Below are positions 8,572-63,272 of a stretch of DNA of 64,000 bases, piece by piece. Made by a program: the position numbers and the translations under genes. How positions within the stretch are numbered: position 1 is the first letter of the stretch; every line of letters starts with the position of its first letter. Source of the stretch: Plumapathes pennacea (Eukaryota; Cnidaria; Anthozoa; Antipatharia; Myriopathidae); the NCBI GenBank assembly GCA_964036295.1, contig OZ038464.1, positions 24,842,508-24,906,507 of the forward strand, given 5' to 3'. Below the pieces are notes generated by a model. The model ran no database searches, was not told where the DNA came from, and saw nothing but the letters and a program-made list of their open reading frames with translations.

Positions 8572-11500
8572 TTAAAATATGTTATAGTACAGCAGATAGG
8601 TCTTAAACCTGTTGACATTACCTTTACAAGAGTTATGTCCTTGTTGCTCACCCAAGGAGTTTTCCAATGGTCTTCCACGATCTTCCAAAGCAATGTTTAC
8701 GTTTGCATCAGAAATTTCTTTGTTTTCCTCTGCTTGTAGTTCAGCAGCTATGTTATCAATGGCACCATCCACGACATTTTTGTCAGCTTCTCTCTTACGC
8801 ACATCAGATTTAGCTGCTGAACATCTGTACAGGATTGACAATTGGACAGGCAGAAAACATAAGCCATGAAGGAGCCCAAGAAACACCATGCTAAAGAACA
8901 TCTTGAAGAAGATCTGAAATATCTCTGACTTGGAAATGGCTGTCATGCAAATTCCAACCAGAGTACTGGCACCTGGTAAAATGCAAAACCAAACCTAACA
9001 TTACAATGAACACCAAACAGTAAAGTTACCTATACAAATAGGCTGTGCCCTATGTTTTTCAACACTGCTACACATGGAAAGGAATACTATGAGTATCAAG
9101 TGAAAATACAGAAAAAAATAGTCATGCTTTCAGAAATTTGAATGTTGTAGCTTGAAACCAGCAAAATTACAGCTATTTCAATTTTAAGAGATTTATATGG
9201 AGAAAGCCAAGCTGGTCTCACTACTTTTACTACTTTTCATTTTCTTACTACTCTCTACTTTCATGTTTTCTCTGCACTTTAGTTTATCATCTTTTTCCTG
9301 CACTCTGCTTCAATTAAATATATAGCATTCAAATTGCACAGAAATGCCATTGAAACATGCTTTTGCCTTGTAGTATTGGTGGTTCTCCTTTGAAGGTCTT
9401 AAGCCGTTCATTTCCAGTCCTCCACTCTTTTTGCATAGGTGTATAAAGCAAGAAAGCTGCCAGACTGATACACTGTTTCGTTGTAAGCATTGCTTTGTTG
9501 CTATCGCACAGCAAATGTTAGCTGAGAGACCTGGTTTATATGTTGCACATGGAAATTATTGAATTTGACTTGGACATCACAAAACACTGATTGTTATTGC
9601 CAGTGACTAAAACTAGTAATCCAGATTTAGCCTAATGTGCTTTGAACAACCAGGCTTTGATTCTAAACAATATATAATTTGGTGTCAGCGATGCACCAGG
9701 CATTGTTGCTGCACATTCTACAACATTTCATCCCTCACCTCCTAACAAAACACTTGCTCCAGTGTTGGTGAGTGCTCCAATCACTCGCTTCTCTGCTTTC
9801 TTGCCTGGTGTCCTCACAAAGGAATGTGCAATGTGTGCACTATAGTCCACAGCAAATCCTATGGCCATAACCAGGTTAATCATTGAGATGGAGTTAAGAG
9901 ACACACCCCATACGTACATCATGCCAAACAACTCAAAAATGAGGGACACAAAACCAAAGAAGACCAGGAAGGATGCAGTGAAATTGACAAGAAAGTTAGC
10001 TGTCACAAAGAAAATGACGAGTGACGCAATTGTCAAATTACGAACTGTCTCTGAGACAATGATAGCATACTGTTCGTAGAAGACAAAGTTGGGGCAGGCC
10101 ACATACACAGGCAGCTTAGATTTTGTGGTGACATCTTTTCGTATGGACAGCATGGCTTCCTGAAGGAACACTGAGCTGGTTGAACTTTTAATGTAGCCAA
10201 TGATACGTGCTGCTTCAATTTTCTCTTCATTCTGGCCAAATTTGACATCCGTTGCAAAATGAGAGAATGCAGAAGTGTTTAAGAAATGTTTCAAGTTAGT
10301 TGTGAAGCTCTTCTCTCCTAAACTTTTGTTATGGCTATGAGCATACTTCAAAAATTCCCCCATCCATGTAACAGTTCTTTTTTCACAATACTCATTCTTT
10401 GTCAAAATCTCAGATAGCTTTAGAATTTCAGTTTGAACTGCTGGCATCTTGTACAGCACATCTTCAGTAATGACACTGAATTCAGTTGGCAGGTTAAAGT
10501 ACTTGTGTTCCATGTTGAGAAAAGCCTTGTAGTATGAGTCCTTTTTCGCTAATAAAGCTCTGTCAAATTCTCTATCAGTGTGGATGGTGGCGTAAATACC
10601 TGCTCCAAGGAGAGCAAATGAGAGAAGCATAACTACAACCTTGGTCTTTGGGTGCATAAGAAATCTCCCCCATCTAGCCATCAATCTATTAGATGTCTGA
10701 GGACATGGTTCATCCCAAGGAGGCTGCCCCTCTTTTGGTGGTGATGCTTGACAGACTGGAAGACAGTTACGGCGATTGTCTTTGATTCTGCGCAAATCAA
10801 ATGACATCAGTGCCACAAAAATAGTGGTAATCATGATGAATGCAAAGGTGATAGTCAGTGCTGCATATATGCAGAAGTACCTGATAGATGGGAAATTTGA
10901 TGTTATACTAACTGCAAAGGCCACTAGGTCTGTTATGGTTGTCATAGTAATAGTCACACCAGTGCTAGACATCACTTGGCGTACTGCAATGGGCACAGTC
11001 AAATGGCGTTCCTGGCGATCCAGCTGGTCCATCATAATAAACATGTCATCAAGGCCAATTCCTATTACAAGAAAGGGCAGGACACCAACAATGCTAACAA
11101 ATGGAGTCTGCATGATTATAGCAAGGGAGAATCCAGCTGCAATGCCAAGGGCCACAGAAAAAGTTCCTCCATATGCCAGCAGCGAATGCCCAGTCAGTGG
11201 ATTTCTGAAGGCCTTCCCTACCATCATGCCAGCAAACTGCAACATGACAGTAAAGGTGAGGGCAAACCAGGGAATATCTGATGAACTGCTTGCAGAGATT
11301 GCATCATCCAAGCTTTTTTCAGCTGAAAAGTAGATGTTTATGCTTGAAATCTGCTCTTGTAGAGAGATGACTTTCATCACAAATGATTCCTCCCAGCGTT
11401 CCACTTGATCAACCTCTTTATCAGTGTCTGGGTCTCTGACATAGTATGTTATCCTTAATGCTTGTGCACTCACAACCTGACCAGTGTGCTTATCCTTCTG

Positions 11501-13985
11501 AACTCCACTTAACATCTTGGGCATGTTGAAACAGGATGGTTGGCCATTGCTCATCATATATCCTGGACAAATGGTAGCATCAGTCAATTTTCCTGTAATA
11601 TTGACAAAGTTTTTGTCATCATGGAAAAGTTCCAATGGATTGATAGCTGTACAGGATGCAGCAGATGCTGCTTCCATCTTGGGATTTCTTACACAAAAGT
11701 TTGCAAATCCTGACAGGTTCTGAATCATTCTGTGCACTTTTAAGGCCTCCTTGAGACATTCAGTAGTCAGAATGTCCCCTCCACGTTTGGGAACCATGAT
11801 TATCTGTTCTTGACGGAGTTTAAACTCAAAAAACTCACTTGCTTTCTCAAGATCTTTCACAGATTTACTATTCTGGGGGACATAGAGTTTCCTTGCCCTG
11901 TTCTCAGGATTTATCCACAAAAATCCCACTGAACATATTCCAACAAACAAGATACAGCTAGCTACAGTGATCAGTGGACAATTGCTTATTGACTCTCCCA
12001 TATGTCCATATAGTTCTTCTAAAGTTCTGTGTAGCCAGTTGCATCCAGACACCCAGACTGTATAGGGATTAGCACAACGAAAAGACCTACAAAAACAAAT
12101 GGTGACAATTTTAAGTTGACATAAACTGTGATGTGGCAACATGGAAAGAGCCTAGTTGGATATAGATGTTTACTCTTGGGTGATCAAATCTTGTCTTGCA
12201 TGTCCTTTTTTTACCTGAAACACTCACAAAGTAGATAAAGTCAAAAACGCTCTCCAGAGTGGAATATTTTTTAAAGCGCAATTTCCTGTTGTCCTGTGGA
12301 CAGCGAAAAAGGTTTTTGAAAACTCTGATGTTATGTCATGAGCACGTCAAAATTTGTATTTAGTGCTTTCCACTCATTTTAGTGTGGACGACAAATGAAT
12401 AAAAATCAATAATCTGAATGAAGATTGAGCAACAATTGTTGCATTTCGGCCTTCTGAGATATTTTTGTAGACTCCCATCAGCACCCCTCCTCTTAGCCAA
12501 AACTTGAAATAAGTGCCCCTCCCCTCTGGTGGATACTGAAGAAAAGCACAGAGAAAAGGTAAAAGGACTGGGGCAGGGATGGGTTAGGGCATCATAGGAC
12601 GGTGTGGGGGTGGCAGTTCTCAGCCATGGCGAAACTGCAATAGCTTGGTTTTTTTTTATTTCTTTATTTCTTTTTATGTTTTGTTTTGTTTTACTTTTTT
12701 CTATATTTTTACACTACTATAATTTATATTAACAAAATAACGCGAAATTTAAAAATTCTCATTTGATAGTCATTGTCAACCATCATTGTCTAGAAATTGT
12801 TTGCTGTTAATTTCAAACAGTTGTAGTAGATCTCTAATAGACTTTCTAAACAAAGGGCCTAAATCTTGTACAGAAAACATTGTGGACAGACATACTTTAA
12901 GTAAATCAGCATAAAGATCAGTGGATTTCAATATTGCCAGAAATGCATAAATTATGTGGGGCTAGGGGGTGAGGGTTATTATTTTTTGGTGTTTTGCAGG
13001 ACTAAACCAATTATTTTCTAAGCACAAAATTAAAAGGTACTTTTGACATTTTCTTTACTCATTTGGGACAGCATGTATGTTCAAATTTGGATTAGATTGC
13101 ACAGGTTTAACAGTTAGGCAACTAACTTTTGTTTTAGTAAAATTCAGGGTACATTACCCTGGAGTTAATTGAGTATGCCTATAGAAATCTATTGTAGATT
13201 TCTGGCAAGTATACTGCTTGCATTCCCATAAATTGTCCTTTGTTTATCGATTTGTTCTTGCAAATTTTCAATGTTTACTATGTACTGTCAATTTAGCAAA
13301 GTTTGCTAAATTTCGGTAAACAAATGGACTACCTTGGCTTACATGGCGCAATATTGTTGCAGTATTATTGCAAGCAATGTGGCATATCCACACTTATATA
13401 TGCTCACACAACATGCAACATGATCAGTACAGTTTTCAGACAAAAGATCTAATAACAGTGGAAATAAATGGATTTGCAGTGGTAGATCCAACCTTTCTTA
13501 AATATGATAACTGTATCAGAGCTGAGACCATTATGGCTAAATTTGTTTCCATCAAATTTAGCAATGGCAAATTTGCTGGACAATTTACTGTGTCATCCTG
13601 CTGTCAATCCAAACCTGTCACTAACACAGAATTTTACCATTCTTTCTTATTTGATTGACAAAAATTATCTTTCATATACACTAGTTAGGCTACTAGAAAC
13701 ATTTATTTTGCAAGCTCTACAGAATGATAATGTTCCTAAAATTTTCCAGCCCAAGAAAGGACTTAGCATATGTAATAAAAGTACATTAAATCCTAATCAT
13801 TCAGAATACAAATTACAGATCATACATTTTATGTGACAAACTAACCTGGAATGGCTAGATTCAGAGTTTCTTCTGTTGGATTTCATTGTAGTAGCAACTG
13901 AGTGCTTATCTACAGGAACCTGGTTCTCATCTTCGCTGGTGATGTTCTCAACTGATCCCATAGTCTTCAATCTAAAAGGTGCCAT
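8572..13985 (-). CDS. Patched domain-containing (PTCHD3-like) 12-TM RND-family membrane protein
   Basis: Exons on the minus strand are 13985-13846, 12086-9739 and 8972-8572, joined by GT-AG introns with matching phases (2, then 1), giving about 962 codons. The start ATG at 13985 has A at -3 and G at +4. After a 47-residue cytosolic N-terminal exon come TM1 (near NCPLITVASCILFVG), a large extracellular/luminal loop, TM2-6 with the sterol-sensing-type region, a cytosolic linker, TM7, a second large loop and TM8-12. The RND cation-relay motifs are intact: GIGLDD in TM4 and GFAVD in TM10. Patched-domain proteins are known to move or bind sterols and other lipids; the substrate here is unknown. 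The acidic C-terminal tail may continue, because a good donor (AAAG|GTAATG at about 8622/8621) precedes the stop, so a further small 3' exon is possible. It is collinear with the N-terminal module of the PKS fusion at 49291. Confidence 0.93.
8973..9738 (-). other. Intron 2 of the Patched-domain gene
   Basis: The 766-bp intron splits codon GGT between TM10 and TM11. Donor GAG|GTGAGG and acceptor TTTACCAG are canonical. Nothing else is seen inside. Confidence 0.8.
12087..13845 (-). other. Intron 1 of the Patched-domain gene
   Basis: A 1.76 kb AT-rich intron bounded by GT (13845) and AG (12087) on the minus strand. I see only low-complexity stretches, for example T-rich sequence near 12650-12700. 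No coding element is supported. Confidence 0.75.
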
Positions 13986-31451: not shown

Positions 31452-31927
31452 GTTTAGTTAGGGGTGTCTCGAAAACTAAGACCTAAGACCTCGAAAACTA
31501 AGACCCCCGAAAATATGCTCAGCGAAACGCTCGATTCGCCTCGGAATTGTTTTTACCGGAAGCTGGTTGTGTGACACTTCAAACAATGCGGTATTTTTAG
31601 ACGTTTGGCAATTATTCCAAAGGGTCTTAGTTTTCGAGATCTCGAAAATATGCTCAGACGGATAATTACGGAGCTCTATTTGTTCTTCAAAATGTACAAT
31701 ATCTTCAAGTACAGATAATAGAATTATTCTCCATTAATGCAACGCAGACAACACACTGCGCCTTGCTTATCGTGTTGTACATCGGGGATTGGTTTAAACC
31801 TAATTAAAGGCTCTATTCAAGTCTGGAAAATCCCATGACGTTATGGCTAAGCTTTCAAACAGTTCCGTCTAGAATTTCTGTCCGCAAACTCATCGTTGGA
31901 AATTCTTGCCCACGTGCGACGACAAGT

Positions 31928-32218
31928 ATGGCGTTCAAACTACCAATATTTTCCCGAAAGAAACCCCCCGAAAGCAACGATCTACCTGGATTCCGGTATA
32001 CAGACCTGCAGCACTTGGAAGTTATAGGACAGGGCTCGTTTGGTGCCGTGTTTACTGCAAGGCTCGGTGTGGAGGATGATCGGTCCGAGACAGTAGTTGT
32101 GAAAAAGCTGCTAGATGGGCGTGATGAGAAAGAGTTCATGAAAGAAATCATGAAATCGTTAGCTTTGCAGCGACAAAGATTAATCTTTCATAGAAGTATG
32201 TTACGAGTTGTATACTGA
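31928..32218 (+). pseudogene. Protein-kinase N-lobe fragment captured in the MULE-like element
   Basis: The frame opens earlier, at ATG 31835, but kinase-like sequence starts after the in-frame ATG 31928. A basic leader is followed by a glycine-rich loop GQGSFGAVFTA, the ATP-binding Lys in VVVKKLL and a helix-C-like segment EFMKEIMKSL. It then loses similarity and stops at 32218. The catalytic HRD and DFG parts are absent, so it cannot be an active kinase. The frame may be the first exon of a captured kinase gene, ending near 32160. Which kinase group it came from cannot be told from the N-lobe alone. Confidence 0.7.
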
Positions 32219-41015: not shown

Positions 41016-41574
41016 CTATACGGGATAGAATATATTTGTCACGGTGATTGTTCGATTTCCACTGACTAACCTTTGTTGCTTGTCCTTTCTAAATAAGTAT
41101 CTGAGTTTAACACAAAACGGCGTCTGAAGCTCCCGATTTGCTTTCAAGCGCTGTTCCCTTTGCGGAGTTGTCTGTGTTACCCGCTTCTGTTCATGTCGCT
41201 TTTGGTCGGCATTCATGCGCTGTTGTCTTTGCGGAGTCTTCTCTTCGGCCCGCTTTTTCTCCTGAAGGTCTCGATTCGCTTTCAAGCGCTGTTCTCTTTG
41301 CGGAGTTGTCTGTGTTACCCGCTTCTCTTCATGTCGCTTTCGATCGGCATTCATGCGCTGTTTTCTTTTCGGTCATGGTTCCGTCTTTTGTCGAGACGAA
41401 CTGGCGCTGTTCGATCGTTTCACGATTCCGCCTTGCTCGTGCCTGTTCCCTTCTCTTTTGAAGACGAGCTTCGCGAGACTGTTGTGTTTCAAGTTTCCGG
41501 TTTTCAAGTTTTCCATTTTCGTGAACACAGCTACGATATACTGTAGTTGCTTCGTTCAATCTAATTTCTCTCAT
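41016..41574 (-). pseudogene. Frameshifted REQR-repeat protein fragment
   Basis: Minus strand. A frame starts at ATG 41574 and becomes strongly basic (REARLQKRREQARARRNRETIEQRQ-like). Around 41330-41355 the same repeat theme continues in another frame (TPQREQRLKANR, TPQRQQRMNADQKR), suggesting one frameshift or an unseen intron. The units are about 24 residues with a T-P/E-Q-R-x-x-R-L core. Such Arg/Glu-rich repeats occur next to Helitron- and PIF1-helicase-like proteins in invertebrates, but no helicase is visible. No transmembrane or catalytic part. Confidence 0.4.
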
Positions 41575-41576
41575 TG

Positions 41577-41750
41577 CGAGTAAAACTACAGGGCCACACG
41601 TGATCGATCCGGCCTTTGTTATTGGTTCTGCAGCGACGCGATAGGAACTGGGGACGAGGTCGCACGCAAGACTGACAGACTGACAGACTGACAGACGAAC
41701 ATTAGATTTCGAGATGGCGGCAGGCTTGGAGTCTCCGATAAGGCGATAAT
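41577..41750. repeat. Direct duplicate, copy 1, upstream of the REQR-repeat frame
   Basis: Shares GAGTAAAAC, CACACGTGATCGATCCGGCC, a GACTGACA microsatellite and TTTCGAGATGGCG with 41817-41980. It contains an E-box CACGTG and may be a duplicated promoter of the minus-strand REQR frame. Confidence 0.7.
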
Positions 41751-41816
41751 ACTACTGCATTAGCGTCGTGAGTATTTCCCTCACTTCGTTCGGGGATTAA
41801 TTTCTCTAAGCTATTC

Positions 41817-46910: not shown

Positions 46911-48048
46911 GAGTTTGACTAATGGTCGTGGGTCGTGGGTACAAAGTCGTGGGTGTGGGTACAAAGTCGTGGGTGTGGGTATGAAGTCGTGGGTGTGGGT
47001 ATGAAGTCGTGGGTGTAGAAATAGGTCGTGGGTACCTAAAAACTGTAAAAGTATGTTAATTGATAATATTTATTTATTAATTGGCAGCCAAAATAAGTTT
47101 AAACAAAAAAAATTCGCAAAATTAATTCTGTCTGTCCGTCTTAGAAGGCTATTTCTCTGGAATTACTCCGATATATTTTAATCAATTTCAATCAACTCCC
47201 CCCCCCCCCCCGCCCCCCCTGTCAGGGACAGGTATAGTGCAGAAGCAATGTAGACCTCGCCAGTGAACAATGGGTTTTTACGGCAAATGTGGGCAGAGTT
47301 GAGATGATAATATGTGTTGCTGAAATCAGCACTATACTGAAACTGACCAGTATGCTCATCTCGCCGCATAAGTCTTCGGTCAATATGTTTAACGACAGCA
47401 GAACAGAGGCATGTTGTTGATTCATGCGATTTAAACGTCATTCTTATATAGCCAGCGCGGTTATTTTACATGTTCGGTACCAATGCAAGGCGTTTCACTG
47501 TTATGTAGATTGTAGTTTCGTTTGCAAAACACAAGCCAGAATAAAATAAACCAACCCTGTTGATTTGATTATCATTGACTGAATCATTATAATGGACATT
47601 TTTATATGCGTGAATTTGTGTGAAATGATCCACGTGCACAACCAGCCAGTAAATACACAACTAGGCCCGGTTGCTTGTGTGCGGGAGTTTCTCTTATCCG
47701 GTCCCCGGCATGTGGATGTGAGGCACAAAGTTGTGGATTTTGAGGGGGGCGGGGGGTTGATTGAAATTGATTAAAATATATCGGGGTAATTCCAGAGAAA
47801 TAGCCTTCTAAGACAGACAGACAGAATTAATTTTGCGAATTTTTTTTGTTTAAACTTATTTTGGCTGCCAATTAATAAATAAATATTATCAATTAACATA
47901 CTTTTACAGTTTTAGGTATCCACGACCTATTTCTACACCCACGACTTCATACCCACACCCACGACTTCATACCCACACCCACGACTTCATACCCACACCC
48001 ACGACTTTGTACCCACGACCCACGACCCACGACCATTATTCAAACTCT
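46911..48048. mobile_element. 1.14 kb giant foldback element with ~300-bp arms and GTCGTGGGT arrays
   Basis: The left arm 46911-47212 and right arm about 47745-48048 are near-perfect inverted repeats. The outer 130 bases of each arm are an array of about 20-22-bp units GTCGTGGGTGTGGGTATGAA. The inner part includes GGCAGCCAAAATAAGTTTAA and GGCTATTTCTCTGGAATTAC. The 530-bp centre starts with a C-run and ends with a G-run and has no recognised gene. No target duplication is certain. Confidence 0.8.
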
Positions 48049-48897: not shown

Positions 48898-49290
48898 TGA
48901 ATTTCATTAGATCTATGTACTGAGTATTTCGCAAAATTCAGGAGCTTTGTTCAGCAAACTCTGCTTTATATGTTTTAGCAAGTTCTTAAACTTTAGACGG
49001 TCACCGCTGAATGTTAGTATTTGTGAACTGCTATGAACTTGAAAGTTTACCTATTTATGCCTCAAGAAAAAGTAAAATATGTTGTCTTCCGAAAATGATT
49101 TGACCGTTTTCCGCAAAACGGTGGATAACCTGCAATCAAGCCCTTTTCCCAGTTCACTTGATAACGCGCACTTAAAGGTTCAAGCTACTCGGCTTCTGCG
49201 CAGTCTTTCTTTGTACCACCTTGCAAAGTTAAGTTTAGCCATTTTGCCCGCAAAATTGGGAAGTAACGGGGCCTTGAAAGAGACGCGAAT
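48898..49290 (+). promoter_or_regulatory. Presumed 5' flank/UTR of the Patched-PKS gene
   Basis: About 390 bases between the TTAA element and the ATG at 49291. An in-frame stop TAA at 49264-49266 precedes the start. No clear TATA box; AT-rich. A 5' UTR intron cannot be excluded. Confidence 0.4.
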
Positions 49291-52012
49291 ATGGCGGGTA
49301 TGGCGGGTAATGCATGTACTTTACGATTGGTAGGTCAATTTCCCAATGTCTGGCATTTCTGGCCGTGTAATTCAGAGCAAAAAAGCAAAATGAAAAGAAT
49401 ATTGCCATTACTGTTGTGGTATAAGTATAATAGCACCATTTCGGTTCCTACTTTCTACAGGCTTTCTGGTAAGAAAGAAGAAAGAACAAGCAGTAAATTG
49501 GGGAAACTTGGTGGAATCTTATTATTATGCCTGCATTTTATACTCATCAAATACCAGAGAGTTCTGGAGAGCCTTGGCACAATTGTAGTTCGGCATCCAA
49601 AGAAAATAATTGTCACCATGTGCCTGATCACTGCCCTCACCTGTTTGGGATTCTCAACAAAAACATCTAAGCAATCGGAAGAGCTCCATACTTCCGAAAG
49701 TAGTCAATTTGCTAAAGATTTAAAGATGGCACGAAACTATTTTCCATCAGTTGACGCTAGGCGTCAAGAGGTTATCCTAACTCCTATGGTTAAGTCAGGG
49801 AACAACGTTCTCTCAACTGGTTGCTTAAGAGATGCACTTCTAGTACACCAGACAGTTGTTCAACTAAACAATTTTCAAGACGTGTGCATGGCAAGACAGG
49901 ATGAAAAGCATTCACGACAGCATAACTCTTGCATGATGACTAACCCCTTGGAACTGTGTGACTTTAAAGCAGAAAACTCTAAAAACTGTCTAGAAGCGAT
50001 TGCAAGAGAATGGAAAAACTCAAGCAAACTGCTTTCGGACGGACGGTCATTAAGGTTTGACGAACGTCTATTATTTGCTGGTTTAAGTATTCAGCAGAGC
50101 AGGAACGACTCCAAGACGGAAACCATCATCGCGCAAGCTGTGAAGATGACCTATTACATAAAGAACCCTCCAAAAGGAGATCCATCTAGAAACGACGTCC
50201 TGTCGTGGGAAGCGAAATTTGTCCAAAAAATGAAAGAGGTTCGGTCGAACCTGTCATGTGCATCACTGTACTTCATGTCGTCGCGCGACCGCGAAGACGT
50301 CAGTACTTTACTCCTGTCACTTGACACCACGGCACTTCTTCTTTCTTTTGCTGTTCTATTGTTTACTTCCATCATTCTTTCCATGTACACGATGGCCTCC
50401 GTGCACATTGTGGCCATTTGTCTCGGATTCTTGGCTGTTGTGTGTGTTGCCATGACCATAGTTTCAGCAACGAGCATAGGAAACCTGGTGGCTGCTAACG
50501 TCCTGGACGCATTGTGGATTGTAATCATCTTCATGTATTGTAAAGGAGCTGGTGACTCGTTGGTCCTTACTCAAGACCTGCACGACCAAAGCCAAGTGCC
50601 ATCCATTGAGCATCGAATTACAAGGTGTATGACAAAAGCTGGTCTGGCCCTTACAACATCTAGCATAATCTGTTTAGCAGCTTTTGCTACTGCTTTCCAC
50701 TCCTCCTTTCCAGTTCTAAGGGAACTATTCTTTGTGGCATTTGTAAATGTTCCTGTCTGGTACATAATCTCTTTAAGTTTATTTCTGGCATGTCTGCGTG
50801 TTGGTCTTGGAAAGTACCGAAATGATTCACGAAAAGCTTGCTTTCCCTGCTGTGTCAATCGTGCGAATCCACGCGGAGAAGACTCCCTGCCTAACACAAG
50901 CAGTGTTATGAAGATTTATGGAAACATAATTTGTAGCATCCCGGGCTCTTGCCTAGTTGTAATCCTGTTTGTAGGGCTAGTTGTTGGTAGCTCATACTTG
51001 GTACTGCGGCCTGGGTCTACATTTGACAGTCCGTTTGCCATGGTCCCTGAGGATGAAACAATCGAATTCGCGAAGATAAAGAGAGAACATTTTAAGGACG
51101 AGATACAAGTCAAGATAGTGTTGCATGGCAGTGTCGATTACAGCAACAGCAATGTTCGACGACAGCTGCAGAAGTTTGGAAAAATCTTGAGCAGTGCTTC
51201 TTATAGTGAACGCCCTGTGGTGAGCTGGATTGACACTTTTGAAGAATGGGCAAAGCGTAATGGCTTAAATTGTAGTGGAACTTTATTTCGTGGATGCTTG
51301 GTCGACTTTCAAAATTACCGTGGACACGCCTCTTTCCGTGAAGATCTACATTTCGAGAAAGGCACTCTCAATCTAGCTGCAACCTGTTTCCACTTGTACA
51401 TGATATCCTCCTCAGAATTTACCTTCAACGAGAAGTCCCTAAACTCTCTCCGAGAAGACATATCTGGTTTCAAGAACGAACAAACTATATCTGTTTTGGT
51501 TGCGTCCCGTCAACTTGAAGAAACAGATCAACTGGAAATAGTAAAGAAGGAATGCTTTAGGTTAACGATAATAGCAGGAATTACTACCTTGGCCATTTCA
51601 TTAATCTTCACAGCCAACCCTCGCCTTTCTGTAGTACTCACAGCTGGATTCGTTGTTCAGATCCTCGAGTTACTTGCTTTGCTGAATCTGTGGAATACGC
51701 CTCTAAACGATGTCAGCTTAATCTGCGTCATCTTTGGGCTTGCTATCTCTTTAAGTTTCAGTGTACAAATGAGCCAAATTCGAGCCTTATCAGTAGATGT
51801 TACTGCACGGGAGCGAACTATGGCTGCTCTGACCTCCGTTGGAATGTCAATATTATGTGGGGTCGTCCTGACAATCGAGGGATCTATAGCACTTGGGTTT
51901 ATATTTCCAAACTTGACACCGATCTTCCACTGGGTACTCCCTATTCATTTTGGGCTCAGTCTCTTTCATGCCCTTGCCTTTATACCCTCAGTCTTGCTGA
52001 TTACAAGCAAAC
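49291..52012 (+). other. Patched/RND-like membrane module of the fusion (residues 1-907)
   Basis: It is collinear with the PTCHD gene at 8572-13985: TM1 after [39 protein letters not shown]2-6, TM7 ([16 protein letters not shown]), [22 protein letters not shown], then TM8-12 ending [14 protein letters not shown]. The RND cation-relay acids are degraded: the TM4 position equivalent to GIGLDD reads CKGAGD (D422 kept, first Asp replaced by Gly421), and the TM10 position equivalent to GFAVD reads GLAIS (Ser820). In known Patched/RND proteins these acids support ion-coupled transport, so this module may bind or shuttle lipid passively or serve as anchor. Unlike the PTCHD gene it has no introns. 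Confidence 0.9.
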
Positions 52013-55000
52013 CAGCCGAAGCCTGTGCAACAGCTATGACAAATGATGTGTCACCCTTTGAACTGTCGTCTTTGATAACGCATGAATCCGCAGAGGAACA
52101 CATTCCGAACCCAAATCATTCTCACGGAGAACCTTTCCACAGGTCCAAACACACTGGTGTTGCTATTGTTGGGATAAGTTGTAGATTTTCTAACGCCGAG
52201 AGTAAAGACAAGTTTTGGGACATGCTCACTGAAGGAAAATGTGGTTTTCGACAGGACTATCCAGCTAATAGACCAGACGAGCGTAAAAGCTATAATGCCC
52301 TCTACAATCCCAAGCGTTTTACACCGGGGAAACTTTGCGCACTGGGAGGTGCCTATCTCAACAACATTCGTGGTTTTGATGCCGACTTCTTCAACATCTC
52401 TCATCAAGAGGCTAGAAAGATGGATCCTCAACAACGAGTTCTCCTTCAAACTGTTTATGAAGCTATTGAAGACGCAGGACTACGTTTGGAAGATCTCCAG
52501 AAAGGCAGTACTGGTGTTTTTGTTGGAGCCATGAATTTGGATTATGCAAGTCGTGCGCTGCAGCCGGAAAACCTCCCCAATGTTGACCAGTTTTTGTCCA
52601 CTGGTATAACAGCTTCAATTTTGGCAAACCGGATATCATATTGTCTTAACTTCACAGGTCCCAGCCTGACAGTAGACACTGCATGTTCGTCTTCTCTTGT
52701 TGCACTTAAGATTGCCTGCGAGTGCCTCCATAGTGGAGAGTGTGATGTTGCAATTGTCTGTGCACCAAATATAATCTTAGATGCAGCAGTGCAGGTTACT
52801 TTCAGTATCGGCGGATTACTAGCACCAGATGGACGCTGCAAGTCCTTTGATGCATCTGGAGACGGCTACGGAAGAGGAGAGGGATTTGCAGCTGTAATCC
52901 TGAAGCCCAAAGATACTGCAGTCGTAGATAAGGATGACACGTACTGTGAGATCATAGCTTGTGGTATGAACAATGATGGTCAAAGTGCAGTGCCTATCAC
53001 GGCTCCCAGTGCGCAAACCCAGGCGAAGCTTTCTCAAAGAGTCCTGGAGGAATCTGGCGTGGATTCTGAAGATGTTGAGTATCTAGAAGCTCATGGTACT
53101 GGAACTGCCATTGGGGATGTGGTTGAAATGAATTCTACTGCCGAGACATACTGCAGCAAAGTAACCGACAAAGGTCGATACCTTCGTGTCGGCTCAGTAA
53201 AGTCAAATCTAAACCACACAGAGTCAGCATCCGGCCTGGCTGGTCTCATCAAGGTGGCGTTGATGCTCAAGACGAAAACCTTCGTTCCAACAGTTAACAT
53301 CAACATCCTTAACCCCAAGTTAAAGTTAAATGAGAAAGGAATAAAAGTGCAAGTTGTCTGTGAACCTTGGACAAAGGAAGACGGAAGACCTCGTATGGCA
53401 GCCATAAATTCGTTTGGATATGGTGGAACAAATGTACACGCCATACTACAGGACTGTCCAAGCGTCCGAAGCGTTCCCCAGAAGAAACATGCCCGAGAAA
53501 ATTGTGTCCTCGCCCTATCTGCACGTTCAAAACCTGCACTTCATGATTTGGCAAAACAACATGCTCAGTGGCTCAAAGAAAACCCCGAATATGAAGAAGT
53601 TAAAGGTGACATTTGCTGGTCCCTTAACGAGAGGCGCAGTCAGCATAAACATCGGTTAACAGTGGTGTTCGACTCCCTGCAAAACGCAGCGCAGATGTTG
53701 GAATTGTTTGGGGACAACAAGCCAGGATGGGAAGCGCACATATCCCTGGGTGAAGCCATCAGCCATCCTTCTAGAGTAGCTTATGTTTTTGGTGGCCAAG
53801 GAGCAAACTGGAGTGGCATGGGAAGGCAACTTATGAAATGTGAGCCCCTCTTCAAGGAGATTATCAGCTCCATTACAAGTATTATCAAATGTCTGGGCGA
53901 AACGTGGTCACTAGAAGATGAACTGCTCTCCCACGAAAGCAGTGAAAATCTCATGGGAAACCTGATTGGTCAGCCTGCGACCTTCGCCGTGCAGTATGCC
54001 ACAGCAAAATTGCTAGAAAGCTGGGGAGTTTCACCTGCAGCTGTAGTTGGTCACAGCTTGGGCGAGCTTACAGCAAGTTGTGTGGCTGGTGCGCTAACTC
54101 TTGAAGAGGCCCTAAAGATTGTCTTGGTACGCTCGAAATGCCACGAGCGGTGTACACGTGGAGGCTCCATGGCAGCCCTTGGAATGTCTGAAGAGGATGC
54201 ATGCCAACTAATACGTCAACTCAATTTACAAAACAGTATCGGTGTTGCTGCAATAAACGACAGGAAAAGCGTCACACTCTCGGGTGACACCGAAGCAATC
54301 GAATGCTTCCACACTCACCTCCAACTGAATGGAATACAAGTCTTCTGGAAGGTTCTTTCGACTCCAAGAGCTTTTCATAGCTCTCACTTAGAAGCCGTCA
54401 AAAAGAATTTCCATGCTCAAATGAAGTCTCTTCACCTCACTCCCCAAGCAACGAAGATCCCTTTGTATTCCACAGTCACTGGTGATCTTATCTCTGGGAA
54501 ATCAATGAATGCAAACCACTGGTGGGGCAATTTTCGCAGGCCTGTCCAGTTTTGTGAAGCCGTAAAGAATGTCTTAAAAGATGGATACAGGATCACACTT
54601 GAGATTAGTGCCCAGCCCACACTTGGCTATTACGTCGAAAAGATAGCTAAGCAAGAGCAATATTCATCTCAGCCCAACGGCGCCATATCCCTCGCAACAC
54701 ATCCTCGCAAGTCTGTTAAGGACCAGCATAAGGTATTTCTTCACAACACTGTTGGTCGCCTGTACACCATGGGGTACTCTGTAAATTGGGACCGTGTGCA
54801 AGGGGAGGGAAATAACCAGTTTGTTCGCTCACCAACATACCCTTGGCAGGAGAAAGACTACTGGTACAAAGAAGAGTCGACAGACCAAAAGACAGCAGTC
54901 CAACGTCAACGTCACGCGTTTCTTGCCAATGTGAAGCTAACTCCAAGTTTCTCTGGCCTGCAATCGTGGGAGGTGGAGATCGACCTGTATCGATTCCCTA

Positions 55001-58000
55001 CGTTGAAAGATCATGCACTGATCCAGGGTGGTCCTGTGCTTCCAGGATCTGCCTGCGTGGAAATGGCTATTGCTATGGCAGTAGAAAAATTCTGTTGTGA
55101 CGAAGTTGAGGTTAAGAACGTCCAGTTCACCAACATTCTTACCCTACCCGAGAACCAGGTTCGGTTGCTGAGACTTCAGCTCCAAGATGGCAAACAGGCG
55201 TGCACGGCTGATTTCCAGGTGAAGAGCATTCCAAGTGGTGGTGGTCCAGAAATACTTCTTGCGAAGGGTGAGATAACCGCTGCCGTTGGTGAAGGGAAAT
55301 TGCGAAGGCAACAACGGAATGCTAGAAGCGGTCAAGAAAAGTTGGGGGGCGCTTCCGCCAACACCGATGTGGCCCACTTCAGTGAGATTACTGCACGAAT
55401 GAAGCCAGTGGCACTACAAGAATTCAGACACCTGACTGAAAAGTATGGCTTCAACTTTGGTCCTTCCTTCTCCTTGATAAAGATGATTTGGAGGGGTGAT
55501 GCAGAAGCGTTCTGCGTAATTGAAATCGACGGTAAGGAGATCGCTTGTGAAATGGACAAATACGTTCTTCACCCTGCCTTTTTGGACGCTTGCTTTCAGA
55601 CTTCAGCAGCCGTCGAAGAAGATGATGACGAAAACGGCACCAAGCCAACCACTTTTCCAGTTGAAGTAAAGAGACTGTTGCTTGTGGACCGAAAGATCCC
55701 CCTGCAAACATTTTGTCACGTCTCGAAACATTCACAAGGGAACAAGGTAACCTACAACATAAACCTAATGGATGCCCAAGGGAAATTGATTCTCAAAATA
55801 GATGGATTTCAATCAACAGAGATAAGCAGCCTAATTAGGTCTCAGAAGTTGGATAACATAGCGTATGAGATGAAGTGGGTAGAGTCCGTGGTCGAAATCT
55901 CTCCAGCCGAAGGCAGTGCAGAACAAGAAGTGGTCATTGTCTTCAAGGACTCCCAGGGAATCGGAGAATCTTTCGCTGAGATGCTCAAGATGAGAGGCGC
56001 TCACGTCATGAGTGTAAACGTTCCAATAACTGCAACGACCTTGACAAGTGCAATTGGTTCTGTAATATCCTCTGTGCCTACACCTCACAGTAAAGTCCAA
56101 CTGATCAGCTTCCTTCCTGTGGATGCATTTCTTTGCCCAGCATCATTTGAGGCAGCAGACCACTCCCAGATCCTCGCTTTTGCCGGAAGTGTCCAAATTT
56201 TGCAGGCAATCTCTAAAGGCAACTTGAGCAATCCTCATGTGGTCTTCGTAACAAGAAACTCCCATGCGATCTCTTCGAACGACTATGCACACTTTCCATG
56301 GGCTACCTCTATTCTCGGGCTGCGTAGAACAGCTTCACTCGAGATGTCAAGCATCAGATGTACAGCGGTTGACCTCAGCAATGATACCACTGACCTTGCT
56401 CTACTAGCAAGAGAGATTCAAGCGACAACGCTAGAGGACGAGATTGCATACCGAAATGGAAAACGTTTTGTCAATCGCATTGTCAGGCTCGATTCTTCCG
56501 CGAATCCTGCTCCAGCACCACAAGTAAACAGTACCGATTTGCCTCTTTGTGTGGTTCAACATCCGAAAACACAGGAAATTTGTTTTAAGAGGGACACATG
56601 GCCACGTCTTGCTGACAGTAAGATTCAAGTGGACGTCTTTTTCTCCTGGATTGCTAATAAAACCAAAGGCGCCGTCGTCGGCAATGGCACTCAATTTGTT
56701 GGCTTCAGCGGCCAAGTTCGTAAAATTGCTTCAGAAGATGGAGGCATTTGTGTTGGAGACAAAGTATGTGGCATGGTAAACACATTGGAAATTGCAAACC
56801 AAATTCAAGTAAATGCAGATCAAGTCATTCTCAAACCTAAACAGATGAGTGATGAGCAAGCAGCAAGTCTCCCTGTTGCTTTGTCAGTTGCGTTGTACAT
56901 GGTACAGAGAGCTGTGAACGAAAAGCAACACATGCGCCTTCTCATACAAGAGACAAATAGCGGTCTTGGATTAGTTGCAGCCCTTGTAGCCAAAGCCTTG
57001 GATCACAAAGTGGTACGTGCATATGAAGAAGAAACATCTTTCTCACGTGAAAGCACACCAGTATGTGGTACAATGTCAACATCGGCTGAGCAAGTTTCTG
57101 ATGTTGATGCTGCCATATTTTTCTGCAAGCCCAAAGCCAAAATCATAGAGAAGGGGTGTCATTCTCTTAAGAAAGGAGCAAAGTTGGTCGTCCTGTGTGA
57201 AGATATCAGCGATACTATCGCTATTCCCAGTGGTAGCAGCATCACCTATGAAAGAAGCAGTTTTAAGGAGATTCTCCAGAGACCTGGAGCGTTCCCAGAA
57301 TTGTGGGCCACCGTCGAACAGCTGATGGAATCTGTTGGTTGGATGGCAGAAGTTCTACAAATTCCCCAAAACAGATTGAGTGTCCTAGAGGCAGTGCGTG
57401 ATGCTAACGAGAAAGGCCAACAGTTCTTGTTCTTGGATGACAACTCGTCTGGCCCATGCTTTACATCGCTTTCGTTCAGTCCAAAGGATGACTTGGTAGA
57501 TGCCTCCCTGACAGTCTTGCCACCTGGCCTAGATCAACGTGGACTGAAACCTGACCGTACTTACATGATTGTTGGTGGCATGCGTGGTTTTGGCTTTGAA
57601 GTTGCAAGATGGATGGCTGAATCTGGCGCAAAGACCATCGTTCTTGTGGCTCGTTCCAAACCGTCAGAGTCGAAACTTCTGGAAGTATCTCAGCTGGAGC
57701 AAGTGACTGGGGCCAACATAATCATGCATCAGGCAGATGTCTCAAGTGCTGAGTTCATGTTTACCTTGGCACAAAGACTGGAAACGCTTCCCAGTGTGGC
57801 AGGGATCGTACACACAGCAATGGTGCTGAAAGATGAGCTGATACAAGACTTGAGCATTACCAATTTCCAAGTGGTTGCAGCACCCAAAATCAAAGGTGGG
57901 GAGAATTTAGATTTTTTTTATTTTTTAGATGCTGGGTTTACTCCGTATAGTTGCTATAAGCTATAACTGCAGACTGAAAAAGCTTTTGCATACAACGAAT

Positions 58001-61000
58001 AAAGTGTAATAAATTACTTCTTTTTCGTAGAACCTGCGGTAGAAGTATGTTCAGCTTGAATAAGAGCTGTTTTTAAACACTTTTTATATTAAGTATTTGC
58101 ATTTAGTGACCAATGATTGGGCCATGTTATACATATCTGATAAATACTTTAATCGTTAATTGTCGACATTATTCTTTTTACAGGAGCATACCTGTTACAT
58201 GAGATGAGCTTGTCAATGGACCTCGACTTTTTTGTGTTATTCTCATCAATCGCATCACTGCTGGGTAACGCGGGTCAGGCTTCATATGCAGCAGCCAACG
58301 CCTTCTTAGATGGTCTTGCGCACTACCGACGGCATGTGCTGGGTCTTCCAGCACTCTCAATCAACTGGGGACCAATCAAAGGAGCTGGTGTTCTACAACG
58401 CGAAGAGAAGATTGCAGAACACCTTTCCAGAGCAGGATACTTTCTGCTACCTGCCACACAAGGTAAACACGTGTTCTTATACAACGCATAGTAACCACTC
58501 AAAGATTATGCTTATGTTCATATTGTTTCTGGATTTTAACAACATTATACGACAACCTTTATCCTTTGTCTTTCTTGTTTGACATACAGTTGTTGTGTAT
58601 CTGTCAATTATTGTCCAAATTGTGTTTCTAAACTTTAGCAATAGAACACATGGAGAAAATTCTGCTTGTGGAACCTGAAAAGGCACAGATAGGTGTGTTT
58701 GATGTCGATTGGCAAAAGATCCAATCAGGCTCAGCTGAATTTGCCAGATCCACTCGCTTGAGTGACACCCGAAAGGAAGGCGACTCGGCAGAGAATCTTC
58801 AGAACCTTCAACAACTGGCTCCAAGTATACTAATGGAAAAAGATCCCAAAAAGCAGTTTGAAATGGTCCAGCAGTACGTGACTGAGCTGATGTGTTCATG
58901 GACAGGAAACGCTCCTTCTGATCTCGACTTCAGCTCCAGTCTGTACAACTACGGTATGGACTCATTTGTGGGCCTGACGTTCAAAATGCAGCTCGAGTCT
59001 TCACTTCAGTTATCCTTTGAGGTTAGTTTTCTGAATATACTTGGTAACTGATGCACACAGTGTAGATCGACTGAGGTATAATTGGACTTGAAAGAAGGTT
59101 GTTCCCCGGGGGGGGGGGGGGGGGTGCTCCCTATGATCGGCTATACGGGGAGGCTCCGCCCGAAAGAGGTGTATTTTTACGATTGAGGTATAAAAAAGGT
59201 ATAGGAAAATGACGTTTTTTAGGTATTTTAAAGGGTCAATAAAAAGGGTGGAGTGAGGAAATAATTTTGGTATTTTAAAGGGGTACGAAAAACGCCAGGA
59301 AAAACCGGGGAAAAAAAAAACGGCGGAAGACCGGAAACTCCGCCTTGTTAAAAGAGGGAAGCACCCCGCCTTGGAATCGTCTGCCGGACGCATCAAAGGT
59401 ATAAAAAAGGGGTGCATTTGTACTGGAGGTATATAAAAGGGTCCCGATTTTGCCCCCAGGATGGTATTTTAAAGGGTAAGGGGTTGACAGTCCGGGCGGA
59501 GCCTCCCCGTACAAAAGTCCTTTGAGTACCCCCCCCCCCCCCCCGGGGGTTGTTCATGATCAACTCTTTATTCTATGTAACTGAACAATACCACAGACAT
59601 TAATTTAACTGATTCTATTAACTAATATAGAATATTATTGTATACGTGCAATTCTTGTTATCAAAATTTATGCTACTTTTTGACACTGGATAGAATTTGT
59701 TGAGTTTCTAACAAGTAGCTGTCTTTAAGACTGTGATACTTTTCCGGCTAATAAAATTGTTTCTAGTTATTTAATCTCTATTAGTTTTTTGTCTACTGAA
59801 ACTCGGTCAGTAATACTGGTAGGTATCATCATTGACTATTGTCTCATCTTCATCAACAGGTATTCTACTTTACCCAACCTGAGACCACACCCACTAAACT
59901 GGTCCAAGATATCATTGGCAGGCTTAGGAAGGAAAAGATTGTCTCTATTCAAAACGAGAACCAAGAGATCCAAGAACCACCTGCCACAGCAAAACCTGAA
60001 CATGATGATGGTATTCGAAAGAGGCCTCCCCCTACAGAGGAAATTCATCCAATGGACACGACATCCACTTCGGCCACCTATCATCTCATACCTCTGTTTA
60101 AACCCGAGCAAGCAGAGGTGAAGCTTTTTTGTGTTCACCCGGCAGGGCGATATGTCGCAAATCTTGTTCCTATTTCTAATGGCTTCACGCACCAGGTAAG
60201 AGTGAAGTTTTGGATTCAGCGGTCATCCAGATTAGTCATCTGAATGACCGTTCAACAATGTGAATACTGCTTTTAGAATGTATTGATTGGGACTTTCATT
60301 TGAGTAGTCACGCTATTTAGATTGATTTGACACTTCAGCTAATGACTTAAAAAGCTGTGCAGCATAAATAGTTTCTTTGTTTGATCACTGACCTTTTCGA
60401 TTTTGTTTCAGTCCACGGTTTCATTTTACGCCATTGGCTATACAGAGCCCACCATGAAAGCAGATAACCGAAGTGTGCGACAGCTCGCCCACAGCTACTT
60501 AAAGATGACGAAAGAGATCCAGCGGCATGGACCCTACTACTTAGCTGGTCAGTCCTTTGGTGGTCTAGTGGCTTTTGAGATGGCTAACATTCTGACGGAA
60601 CAAGGAGAAGACGTGGCATTTGTAGCAATGATAGACACATTTCCTTGGTACCTGCCAAATAGGTCTGGAGCTGCCAGGCTGGAACTGCTGTTTAATGGTT
60701 CGAAGCTGGAAAACTTAATGGAGGGACTATTTGAGGTATGGCTACCTTAGTATTATCCTCATGTAAAAGGCGTATTACTTTTCAATTATTTTCTATCATT
60801 TCCGGACTATGCAAACACAGCTATAAAACAATGCTCTCATATTATAAATTCCACATTGGAGGGACAAGAACCACATCAGTTGGAAGCTACTGCGGCTCTC
60901 CTATTACCAAGGATTGATTGTATGACGCAGACATACCGTTAGTTGTTATGACAAGTTAAAAGACTCGGAACAAAAGTCTGTTAACTATTGTTAAACATTA

Positions 61001-63272
61001 ACTAGATAATGCAAAGTAAATACTCTGGATATTTTGCTATGAACTTCAATTTCAATATCAAGTTATTGTTTCTTACTTTGCTATGGAAGTAGTCTAATGA
61101 GCTTCTTTGCTGCCATCTTTTTCTCAGGCGACGTTTGAACAAGTGCTTTCAAAAATGGCCATTACCAGCCTGTCCATGGCAGCTGAGGAGTATAAACATC
61201 TCAGAGAAAAGGAGACTCAAGCCGGTACAATACGCTTTCTGCAACAGACAGCTCTGGAGAAGAACATTCCTCTGTATGATATCACGGTACTCCGAGATTC
61301 TTTGCGCCACGATAACCGCATAGCAACTCAGAAACACAGGGAATGGAAGCCCCCACAGGTGAGACACGGACTGACAGTTTCATACTTTGGACCGGTCATT
61401 AATTAGTTAATGATGAATGAATGAGTTGCTTTTTTAGCGTGGAGAACTTTGAATGCACAATATAACAGTTTCGGAGAAACTCACTGACAAGAAGAGCTGC
61501 ACGTTTTCACGTTTGTACGTGTATGCACATATCACTAAGAAGCAGTCGGAACGCGTACATTTACCTCCCTGAGACATGCCAATTTCGAATCTCTGTCTTA
61601 GACTTGATCAATATTTACGTACGATATTTTGAGAAAATCGTGAAAACGTGCAGCTCTTCTTGTCAGTGAGTAAGGAAAGAGTGCAGGCTTGTGCCCTTTG
61701 ATTCAAGAAATTTAATTACAATAAAATCACTGAAAATTGACTACCAGCAAATGAAAAATAAAATAACAAGAAAGAAATTATTTATTGATCTATTAACAGG
61801 TTCGTTTCAAAGGCCCCCTCACCTTCCTGAAGAGCGCAGACCAGCGATACACACCAACCAGACCACTTCAGGAAGAGTCAGATGCCTCGTGGTCCTTGTT
61901 AGTTGACGGTTAGTAAATGTTGGTGTTCATAAGTAAAAAGCGACAAAAAGTATAGAATGTATCTCTATAAACATTTATACCTTGATCTACGCAGGTAATA
62001 TTAATGTTTACATCTGCCCGGGCGACCATCTGGCTCTCAGTGAACCTGGTGATTCCGTGGTTGTTGGACGTATTCTTGCTTCTGCTGTAGGCATAAGGTA
62101 TAGGACTCAGTGTCCGGATCTTCCGCGCCTTCCCAGGACCTATAAGCAACAGCGAGCTATTCGTAAATTCGAGGCTGGAGTAGACGTTGTTCTTTATTCC
62201 AAGAAAGGTATGCTATCACAGTAGACTTGTAAGATGAGAGTATAAAAAGCACACAGTTTTACAAAAATCATTACTTTTGCCAGGGAAATTGTCCGCTTTC
62301 ATATTCGCTAAACCCACGCTTAGGGTATACAGGATCCAAAGAAAAATAAACAATAGAACATTCATAGATACTCATTACCAGGAGTATTGTCACTGATATC
62401 CTTGCCTTGGTTTTTCCTTGAGATTACATTTGAACGTCAAGACTACAGCTCTTCTAAATGCCATGCACAGTCATGTGTCTGATTTACGGCACTCCATATT
62501 GCACGCTGCATCAGTGTATACAGTGGCAACGATAAAACTCTAGTGGGCTGCCATGGTTATATTTATAGTTATGTATTCATTTTTACTTTAATCAGGTAAT
62601 CAAGCAAATGAGTTATAACCTGTTGCACTGGAGTGAACGTAAATCTCATAACATTATTGAAAATCTTTAAAACATTTTAGGATCTAAAGCTCCACGTGTT
62701 GGTACTCTGTACCTGGACGTAAAAAACCAAACATTAGCGTTTCGAAACAATGACGGAAGGCTGGGTCACACCAATCGGAAGATTCATGAGAAGACCATCT
62801 GCTTTAAAGGTGATGCTCTACCCCCACTGCTGCTGCTGCTAGTTTGACTACTAGACTACTGGTGCTAATGCTACAGCTACTATTACTGTTGGGCTATTAC
62901 TAATACAAGACTATTACTACACTCTTGCTCAGCTGCTACTACAGCTACTATTATGACTAGACTACTACTGCTACTGCTGCCGCTAATACAACTACCACAA
63001 CCACCACTATACTACTGAGCCTGACCTCAATACCATCCTTTACTTCGGCAGAATTTCGAAATGTCCTCCCAGGGAAACACGAGCCAACTGCTATCAAGTA
63101 TGTCTCCAAACTCCGCGAAGCAAGAGAACGTACGACCGTCACCCTGGAACGTATTACGTCCGTTGTAACTGCAAAGAGGGCTTATAACTTTGGATGGCAC
63201 AACTTTCAAGACATGAGGGAATTTGCTAGCGTAGTGGAAGCAGTCATGGGTGTTACTGCTTTTACGAAGTAA
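49291..63272 (+). CDS. Patched/RND-like membrane module fused to a type I polyketide synthase with TE and PH-like C terminus (ten exons, 3609 aa)
   Basis: Exons: 49291-57895, 58184-58462, 58639-59021, 59860-60195, 60412-60735, 61128-61358, 61800-61908, 61995-62207, 62681-62809, 63052-63272. All introns are GT-AG, all phases match, and the total is 10830 nt = 3610 codons including TAA. ATG 49291 (A at -3, G at +4) is the first after an in-frame stop. Order: 12-TM Patched-like module (about 100-907), 45-residue linker, KS (about 950-1390), AT (about 1500-1800), DH (about 1890-2190), pseudo-KR and ER-like region (about 2230-2700), KR (about 2750-2960), ACP (Ser3070), TE (Ser3249, Asp3276, His3434), PH-like end (about 3475-3605). 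The PKS part follows the animal FAS-like PKS plan. Expected reaction: iterative malonyl-CoA condensation with beta-keto reduction and hydrolytic release. By Patched topology the enzyme faces the cytosol. Product unknown. Confidence 0.95.
52140..54880 (+). other. KS and AT domains of the PKS
   Basis: [12 protein letters not shown] start, active-site Cys1132 in DTACSSS, His1268 in EAHGTGT and His1309 in SNLNHTES, so the Cys-His-His set is complete. Two usual motifs are altered: GDPxE reads GDVVE, and NIGHTE reads [18 protein letters not shown], Ser1589 in GHSLGE and His1696 in RAFHSSH. AFH at this place goes with malonyl-CoA selectivity, whereas methylmalonyl-specific ATs tend to have ASH. Both enzymes therefore look active. 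Confidence 0.92.
54960..57895 (+). other. DH, pseudo-KR/ER-like and first half of KR
   Basis: DH: His1908 in [13 protein letters not shown] has one residue more than the usual HxxxGxxxxP spacing; Asp2099 in FLDACFQ matches the DxxxQ/H motif. The structural pseudo-KR and an ER-like stretch follow ([33 protein letters not shown]), but the NADPH-binding loop of ER reads ETNSGLGL in place of the usual AAGGVG, and later ER sequence is eroded, so enoyl reduction is doubtful. KR: cofactor loop VGGMRGFG (2761-2768). The exon ends within KR at 57895; Ser2890, Tyr2903 and Asn2907 are in exon 2. No methyltransferase domain. Confidence 0.85.
57998..58013 (+). other. Two AATAAA signals inside intron 1 of the Patched-PKS gene
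   Basis: AATAAA at 57998-58003 and again at 58008-58013, 32-47 bases after the in-frame stop (57964-57966) that is met if exon 1 reads through its donor. Use of these signals would give a product cut within KR, without ACP, TE or PH-like parts. Confidence 0.45.
59104..59549. mobile_element. 446-bp G-run-ended MITE in intron 3
   Basis: Ends CCCCGGGGGGG...GTGCTC and the inverse GAGTACC...CCCCGGGGG, then GTACGGGGAGGCTCCGCCCG-type inverted blocks. TTGTT flanks both sides (59099-59103 and 59550-59554). The interior has many AAAGGTAT/GGTATTTTAAAGGG motifs. Non-coding. Confidence 0.75.
61479..61671. repeat. 193-bp foldback MITE in intron 6
   Basis: ACTCACTGACAAGAAGAGCT at the left end is inverted exactly at the right end, with pairing extending about 36 bases (to GTTTTCACG). 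Lies within intron 61359-61799. Family unassigned. Confidence 0.75.
62681..63272 (+). other. C-terminal PH-like domain exons (9-10) of the Patched-PKS
   Basis: Starting in exon 8 ([16 protein letters not shown]) and through exons 9-10, about 130 residues show strand-turn-strand features ([15 protein letters not shown]), a block [11 protein letters not shown] like the EVRPGK segment of phospholipase C PH domains, and a closing amphipathic helix with Trp ([18 protein letters not shown]). This is the layout of a PH-type fold. It follows the TE and is not part of usual PKSs. PH assignment is by pattern only. Confidence 0.5.
62820..63005 (+). repeat. Degenerate (CTA/CTG/ACT)n trinucleotide stretch in intron 9
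   Basis: Intron 9 is mostly diverged trinucleotide repeat (CTGCTGCTGCT, TACTACTGCTACTGCTGCCG). It is expected to be length-variable. Confidence 0.8.

Follow-up and report, generated by a model that had tools for sequence, protein, structure and literature searches.

We describe a gene whose single reading frame joins an NPC1/Patched-like membrane half to a complete type I polyketide synthase (PKS). It lies in a stretch of 64,000 nucleotides from Plumapathes pennacea (contig OZ038464.1, positions 24,842,508 to 24,906,507; hereafter the window) and belongs to a family of five such genes in the same genome. In all five, the cation triad known from Patched-type proteins is incomplete, whereas it is complete in the ten unfused Patched genes found in this genome. 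From these sequence features we favour, with moderate confidence, a membrane-tethered, cytosol-facing iterative type I PKS, in which the membrane half would serve as an anchor and as a lipid- or sterol-binding platform and the product would be released at the membrane.

One reading frame encodes a membrane half and a polyketide synthase

The fusion gene occupies positions 49291-63272 of the forward strand in ten exons. It encodes 3609 amino acids, ends with a TAA codon and keeps its frame throughout, and the introns of the ten-exon model have GT-AG borders in nine cases out of nine. Exon 1 (49291..57895, +, 8605 bp in one frame) contains the membrane half, the linker, the ketosynthase (KS), the acyltransferase (AT), the dehydratase (DH), the pseudo-KR (ψKR) and ER-like regions and the start of the ketoreductase (KR). 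The stop-to-stop frame around it (49267..57966) is 2899 aa long with no internal stop; given the exon's own base composition, the chance of a frame of this length staying open is about 10^-71. The junction between the membrane half and KS sits uninterrupted inside this exon. The nine remaining exons (2-10) contribute the acyl carrier protein (ACP), the thioesterase (TE) and a C-terminal domain without assignment. The order of domains is therefore an NPC1/Patched-like half with a sterol-sensing domain (SSD), a linker, KS-AT-DH-ψKR-(degenerate ER)-KR-ACP-TE and the C-terminal domain.

The membrane half, probably with 12 TM, covers residues 1-901 (49291..51993, +) as judged from profile matches and hydropathy, and includes the SSD (PF12349) at 50419..50853 (+). 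The linker between TM12 and KS (residues 902-955, about 54 residues; 51994..52155, +) has no intron and no NPGP 2A motif. Since the first ~70 residues of the protein are not conserved among the fusion paralogs, its true start is unsure.

Two features of the surrounding DNA were seen by eye. Intron 3 holds, at 59080-59550, an element that has inverted-repeat-like ends and lies between runs of poly-G and poly-C, and GTCGTGGGT-type repeats stand opposite their own reverse complement at 46915-48030, slightly more than 1 kb 5' of the fusion gene.

The fusion is a family of five genes

The genome (290 Mb, 24 contigs) was searched with the KS-AT part, the membrane half and the KS family as queries. 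The KS-AT query detected five genes of PKS type plus a single divergent KS gene, and the membrane-half query ranked the same five genes first, followed by ten unfused Patched genes. Besides the window copy (W), the fusions are paralogs A (C5:19.06 Mb), B (C5:18.97 Mb), C (C7:11.95 Mb) and D (C5:22.08 Mb). In all four paralogs a single open frame, 1095-1183 residues long, carries the membrane half on into KS. The 11 rows of the KS-family search comprise the five fusions, a gene on contig C4 termed FAS-like solely for its divergence (36-39%), one short piece on C3 and four rows that are second KS exons belonging to the paralogs. Each of the five PKS-type KS genes detected is fused, although these counts may be lower bounds. 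The paralog models come from a custom spliced aligner and contain some tiny doubtful exons; in paralog D the aligner skipped part of the ACP, which was then read directly from the sequence.

These data bear out the original prediction of a single-frame fusion over ten GT-AG exons: the 2899-aa frame is open, the nine introns are intact and the arrangement is found in five genes. An assembly or prediction artefact is ruled out by the same junction at five loci on three contigs, and a pseudogene is ruled out for the window copy by the intact ten-exon model. Separation of the two halves by a 2A-type mechanism was also rejected, NPGP being absent from the 5 models.

The polyketide synthase part retains most active-site motifs

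The original prediction of a complete type I PKS (KS-AT-DH-pseudoKR/ER-like-KR-ACP-TE) on the membrane half is confirmed by profile matches together with active-site motifs. In the window protein, the KS (52159..53301, +; E-value 3.7e-76) has its Cys and both His motifs, the AT (53782..54669, +; 5.7e-56) has GHSLGE and RAFHS, and the DH (54946..55833, +; 2.5e-20) has its His and Asp motifs. The pseudo-KR region (55888..56520, +), placed by position, has no Pfam match. It is followed by an ER-like MDR region with a degenerate nucleotide loop (56521..57510, +; best match 56704-57027) and by the KR (57559..58462, +; 1.6e-56), which is split by the intron 57896-58183 and contains the Gly loop, Ser, Tyr and Asn. 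The ACP (58872..59021, +; 9.8e-6) carries YGMDS and the TE, spread over exons 4-8 (60121..62044, +; 3.5e-23), carries AGQSFGG and CPGDH. We take these KS, AT, DH, KR, ACP and TE motifs to mark the catalytic residues.

The KS Cys and both His, AT GHS[LI]GE and RAFHS, DH His and Asp, KR glycine loop and Ser, and ACP Ser are present in 5/5 genes. The KR Tyr is found in four of the five and is Ser in paralog D; the KR of D is therefore probably inactive, and D may yield a less reduced product. The TE Ser and His were found in four genes, and the TE of paralog C was not found within the 20 kb examined there.

The earlier domain reading had to be amended at two points. The ER-like part proves to be an MDR-type domain that has diverged; it matches the MDR reductase model TIGR02824 with an E-value of 4.4e-12, under the model's cut-off. 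ERs carry a GGVG-type loop; the nucleotide loop here is degenerate in all five genes (TNSGLG or ANRGPG). From this motif reading we infer that the ER is not functional, although the ER-like region is under constraint. The second point is an additional C-terminal domain of about 130 aa, encoded by exons 8-10 (62150..63272, +) and common to paralog D with 37% identity. It has no Pfam match and its best PDB match (E 0.11) is an unrelated protein, and on these grounds a first guess of a PH-like domain, made from its pattern, was dropped.

By score ranking, the KS-AT part is closer to the bacterial PKS structures CurL (4.3e-160) and MAS (1.1e-155) than to animal FAS (2.1e-112) or EcPKS1 of a sea slug (1e-89), which speaks against membership in the animal FAS-like PKSs (AFPKs). 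Bacterial KS relatives in the genome collection amounted to 76 loci; the best of them reaches only 41% identity, so no close donor was seen. Among 255 pattern stretches on viral contigs, none was confirmed as a relative.

The membrane half resembles NPC1 more than Hedgehog-receptor Patched

The SSD match of the window protein (PF12349, 5.9e-12) lies above the family cut-off. The NPC1 model TIGR00917 (1.1e-27) and the Patched-receptor model TIGR00918 (2.6e-6) also match, both far under their curated cut-offs, while Pfam Patched (PF02460) reaches 0.0026, its 18 bits falling short of the cut-off of 23. Matches of PF02460 in the genome include paralogs A, B and C; the window gene and paralog D are absent from them. 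Among PDB profile matches, NPC1 is best (7e-31, in two stretches), followed by PTCH1 (2e-24).

Hydropathy of the window protein gives 12 peaks that do not correspond one-to-one to TMs, one of them merging residues 345-419 and one being extra at 76-87; the mean over the five fusions gives 11 peaks. A number of 12 TM is thus probable and compatible with hydropathy, which does not prove it by peak count. Cysteines 178, 199, 214 and 323 of the ectodomains are present in 5/5 fusions, and in 10, 10, 10 and 9 of the 10 unfused Patched genes, respectively. The 12-TM Patched-like segment of the original prediction accordingly stands as a Patched/RND-type half with SSD, its 12 TM as a count that fits hydropathy; as judged from these matches, NPC1 is a closer relative of it than the Hedgehog receptor Patched/PTCH1.

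Matching trees are consistent with one old fusion

In the tree of the Patched half, a branch with support 100/100 separates the five fusions from the ten unfused genes; under a midpoint root, the fusions follow the order (W,(D,(C,(A,B)))). The KS tree, rooted on the FAS-like gene, groups the five fusions in one clade (SH-aLRT 100) in the same order, with 84 for the A-B fork. This tree contains 43 of 80 rows (37 bacterial, the 5 fusions and the FAS-like KS); of the 76 bacterial loci, one was omitted, one was lost to the length filter and every second of the remaining 74 was kept. This agreement in branching between the Patched and KS halves fits one old fusion followed by duplication. W forms a long branch in the Patched tree, where long branches may meet, and its exact placement there is less sure for this reason.

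All five fusions have introns at model positions 2961 and 3089, and W, A, B and D also those at 3309 and 3386, while those at 1168 and 1888 are present in the four paralogs and absent from W. Either introns disappeared from the 5' two thirds of the gene in W, or they were gained on the line to A-D. Intron loss in W, if it occurred, would account for the 8.6-kb exon.

Between A and C, dN/dS is 0.36 for the membrane half (796 codons), 0.26 for KS, 0.15 for AT, 0.42 for DH, 0.39 for ψKR, 0.22 for the ER-like region, 0.30 for KR and 1.24 for the linker, the last over 39 codons with few changes. The youngest pair, A-B, gives 0.52 for Patched, 0.04 for KS, 0.92 for AT and 0.91 for DH, the AT and DH values resting on very few changes. 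Since the TE of C was not found, the TE ratios of the pairs A-C and B-C carry no meaning. W and D share 27% identity in the membrane half against 61% in KS, which identifies the membrane half as the faster evolving part. By these ratios, the membrane half nevertheless appears to be held by purifying selection.

The cation triad is incomplete in all fusions

PMC9949057 describes a proposed cation site in PTCH1 that combines the Asp pair of the TM4 motif GxxxDD with a Glu in the TM10 motif GxxxD/E, and PMC3078328 reports that C. elegans PTC-3 requires the TM4 Asp. The corresponding columns (421, 422 and 822) were read from an alignment of the five fusions and the ten unfused Patched genes of this one genome. 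In 10/10 unfused genes they are D, D and D. In W, A, B, C and D, column 421 is G, T, T, T and T, column 422 is D, L, L, L and L, and column 822 is S, N, N, N and N, the TM10 acid missing from all five. The complete triad is consequently found in 0/5 fusions: the window copy keeps one acid of three, a TM4 Asp, and the four paralogs none. The TM10 change is also visible in the alignment to NPC1.

These residues suggest that the membrane half departs from ordinary RND transporters, and the loss of the triad speaks against an ion-driven exporter. Incomplete in the fusions and complete in the unfused relatives, the triad favours a membrane-tethered PKS over a self-contained maker-plus-pump. The original prediction had proposed a carrier (or anchor) in cis; its carrier part is weakened by this comparison and the anchor becomes the better alternative. 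The motif is missing from some PTR proteins, and according to PMC3078328 DAF-6 works without needing it, so that loss of the motif does not exclude lipid movement. The family provides a natural case of a Patched-type protein without its cation triad, with unfused relatives in the same genome retaining it.

An unfused Patched gene stands head-to-head with most fusions

One of the ten unfused, triad-complete Patched genes lies in the window on the reverse strand, head-to-head with the fusion. Its main exon is at 9731..12151 (-), and a probable last exon without Pfam match was placed by eye at 8575..8994 (-). The same arrangement, with the unfused gene 25-37 kb upstream, is found at 4/5 fusion loci (C5:18.94, C5:19.04, C7:11.92 and the window); at paralog D, none of the ten unfused Patched genes is nearby. 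Three of these pairs resemble copies of one block, as the unfused genes cluster together and so do A, B and C, and they therefore represent, with the window, two independent cases at most. The pairing could reflect a division of labour between a fused anchor and a separate unfused pump; the neighbour may also be unrelated to the polyketide product.

Between the unfused Patched gene and the fusion, the window contains a BEL/Pao-type retrotransposon (20680-27069, -, a 2130-aa frame; Peptidase_A17 4.3e-43) and a kinase-like ORF (31808-32215, +), a weak protein-kinase match (2.8e-5) that is perhaps an exon of a kinase gene. A homeodomain exon (2e-20) is located at 3230-3607 (-). In search of genes common to the window and the paralog B locus, 618 window ORFs (1-49200) were compared with two 10-kb stretches at B, on either side of a 2-kb piece. 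The sole match (40161-41759) is repeat-like, occurring in several frames and in both stretches. Elsewhere in the assembly, the small contig C24 carries a split cox1 whose frame contains TGA (and one TAA), a state that fits a hexacorallian.

A proposed membrane-tethered synthase and its alternatives

In the explanation that we favour, the N-terminus and the PKS would both be cytosolic, where malonyl-CoA and NADPH are found. AT would load malonyl-CoA, RAFHS being presumably a mark of malonyl-CoA specificity. KS, DH and KR would then build a partly reduced acyl chain, probably a polyene, since a non-functional ER would leave it unsaturated, and TE would free the chain beside the membrane. The membrane half would place the hydrophobic product in the bilayer, or couple the location or stability of the enzyme to membrane lipid, and would not act as an ion-driven pump. 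Active export, if any, would fall to separate proteins such as the unfused triad-complete Patched protein encoded head-to-head. A spliced or alternatively started PKS-only product might also be made.

The membrane half could instead regulate the enzyme. HMG-CoA reductase has an N-terminal SSD membrane domain of eight TM on a cytosolic enzyme, and Insig binds its YIYF motif. A similar control, in which the SSD would determine the location or degradation of the PKS and product placement would be secondary, is a real though minor possibility: the layout of the fusion is the same and its SSD match is clear (5.9e-12), but YIYF is found in 0/5 fusions, which makes a copy of the control of HMG-CoA reductase less likely, the membrane half has an RND-type layout with ectodomains in place of eight TM, and HMG-CoA reductase is absent among the 26 PDB sequences matched. 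That the joined frame never becomes one protein, either because transcripts break between the halves or because the chain is cut, appears highly improbable. A linker without constraint (A-C omega 1.24 over 39 codons, few changes) and a Met in the window linker would agree with it, but the same-frame junction in five diverged paralogs, the matching trees and the absence of NPGP argue against it.

Other explanations give the membrane half a part in moving the product. The original proposal, a maker and pump in one protein whose Patched half actively exports the polyketide of its own PKS, is consistent with the retained membrane half and ectodomain cysteines and with the cooperation of the RND relative MmpL7 and the PKS PpsE in mycobacteria (PMC1238737), but it is very doubtful in view of a triad that is incomplete in 5/5 fusions and complete in 10/10 unfused genes. 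Loss of ion coupling would be accommodated by a passive conduit or exchanger, in which the triad-less NPC1-like cavity moves the chain to the outer leaflet, with or against sterol. The ectodomain cysteines and SSD are kept, and the membrane half is under selection despite the triad loss, all of which points in this direction, yet we consider it rather unlikely. It also seems unlikely, if slightly less so, that the fusion is a one-chain machine whose NPC1-like half, lacking ion coupling, passes the TE-released chain via the sterol path into or across the bilayer. If it were, an animal lineage would have hard-wired polyketide-lipid synthesis and membrane delivery in each of the PKS genes detected in its genome. 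We retain the membrane-tethered PKS as the preferred reading.

Comparison with known systems

To our knowledge, the destination of animal PKS products is mostly unknown. The medaka PKS is described at the apical cell side, its product proposed to seed ear-stone mineral (PMC4604110). With a gene family that anchors the PKS on a sterol-type membrane protein, questions of where the product is made and how it is delivered can be put to a direct test in cnidarians. For Acropora digitifera, Table 2 of PMC4604110 gives three PKS models of the form other-KS-AT-DH-KR-(ACP*)-TE, two of them on one scaffold, with ACP* for one model and none for two. Like the fusion, these models have an additional N-terminal part. 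The fusion may explain this unnamed part, in print since 2015; the term 'other' is also used for a turtle PKS in the same paper (PMC4604110) and so need not mean Patched. That paper lists no PKS in Nematostella or Hydra, and two multidomain PKS genes are mentioned, as data not shown, for a Palythoa genome (PMC11413580). The vertebrate and sea urchin PKSs OlPKS and SpPks2 and the AFPK EcPKS1 resemble the fusion as animal type I PKSs, but Table 2 of PMC4604110 gives no membrane domain for them, SpPks2 being listed as KS-AT-DH*-KR-ACP-TE. The word Patched is absent from the main text of the AFPK paper PMC10764717. A literature search pairing Patched or SSD with PKS or KS, conducted on titles and the beginnings of abstracts and with few subscription papers and bioRxiv preprints within its range, yielded no Patched-PKS fusion among the papers listed. 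What appears to be new here is the combination of a Patched/NPC1-type membrane half and a complete PKS as a gene family, with the loss of the triad as the main new result; coral 'other'-PKS models were already known.

With NPC1, its best match, and with Patched1 and Dispatched, the fusion shares the SSD, and its ectodomain cysteines recur in the unfused Patched genes; it differs from them in its incomplete anionic triad and in the ~2650-aa enzyme at its C-terminus. MmpL8-Pks2 is a mycobacterial RND-PKS partnership. Both MmpL8-Pks2 and MmpL7-PpsE combine an RND membrane protein with a type I PKS and a hydrophobic product, as the fusion does, but these pairs are two proteins acting in trans, whereas the fusion is one chain with an incomplete triad. 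PpsE binds its own RND transporter MmpL7 in trans (PMC1238737), and the mycobacterial parallel drawn in the original prediction finds support only as an analogy to this pairing. For the logic of a tethered PKS, MmpL7-PpsE may be regarded as the closest working analogy. For the layout, the closest is HMG-CoA reductase, in which an SSD membrane domain at the N-terminus precedes a biosynthetic enzyme in the cytosol; the fusion differs from it in its membrane fold, its enzyme and its lack of YIYF.
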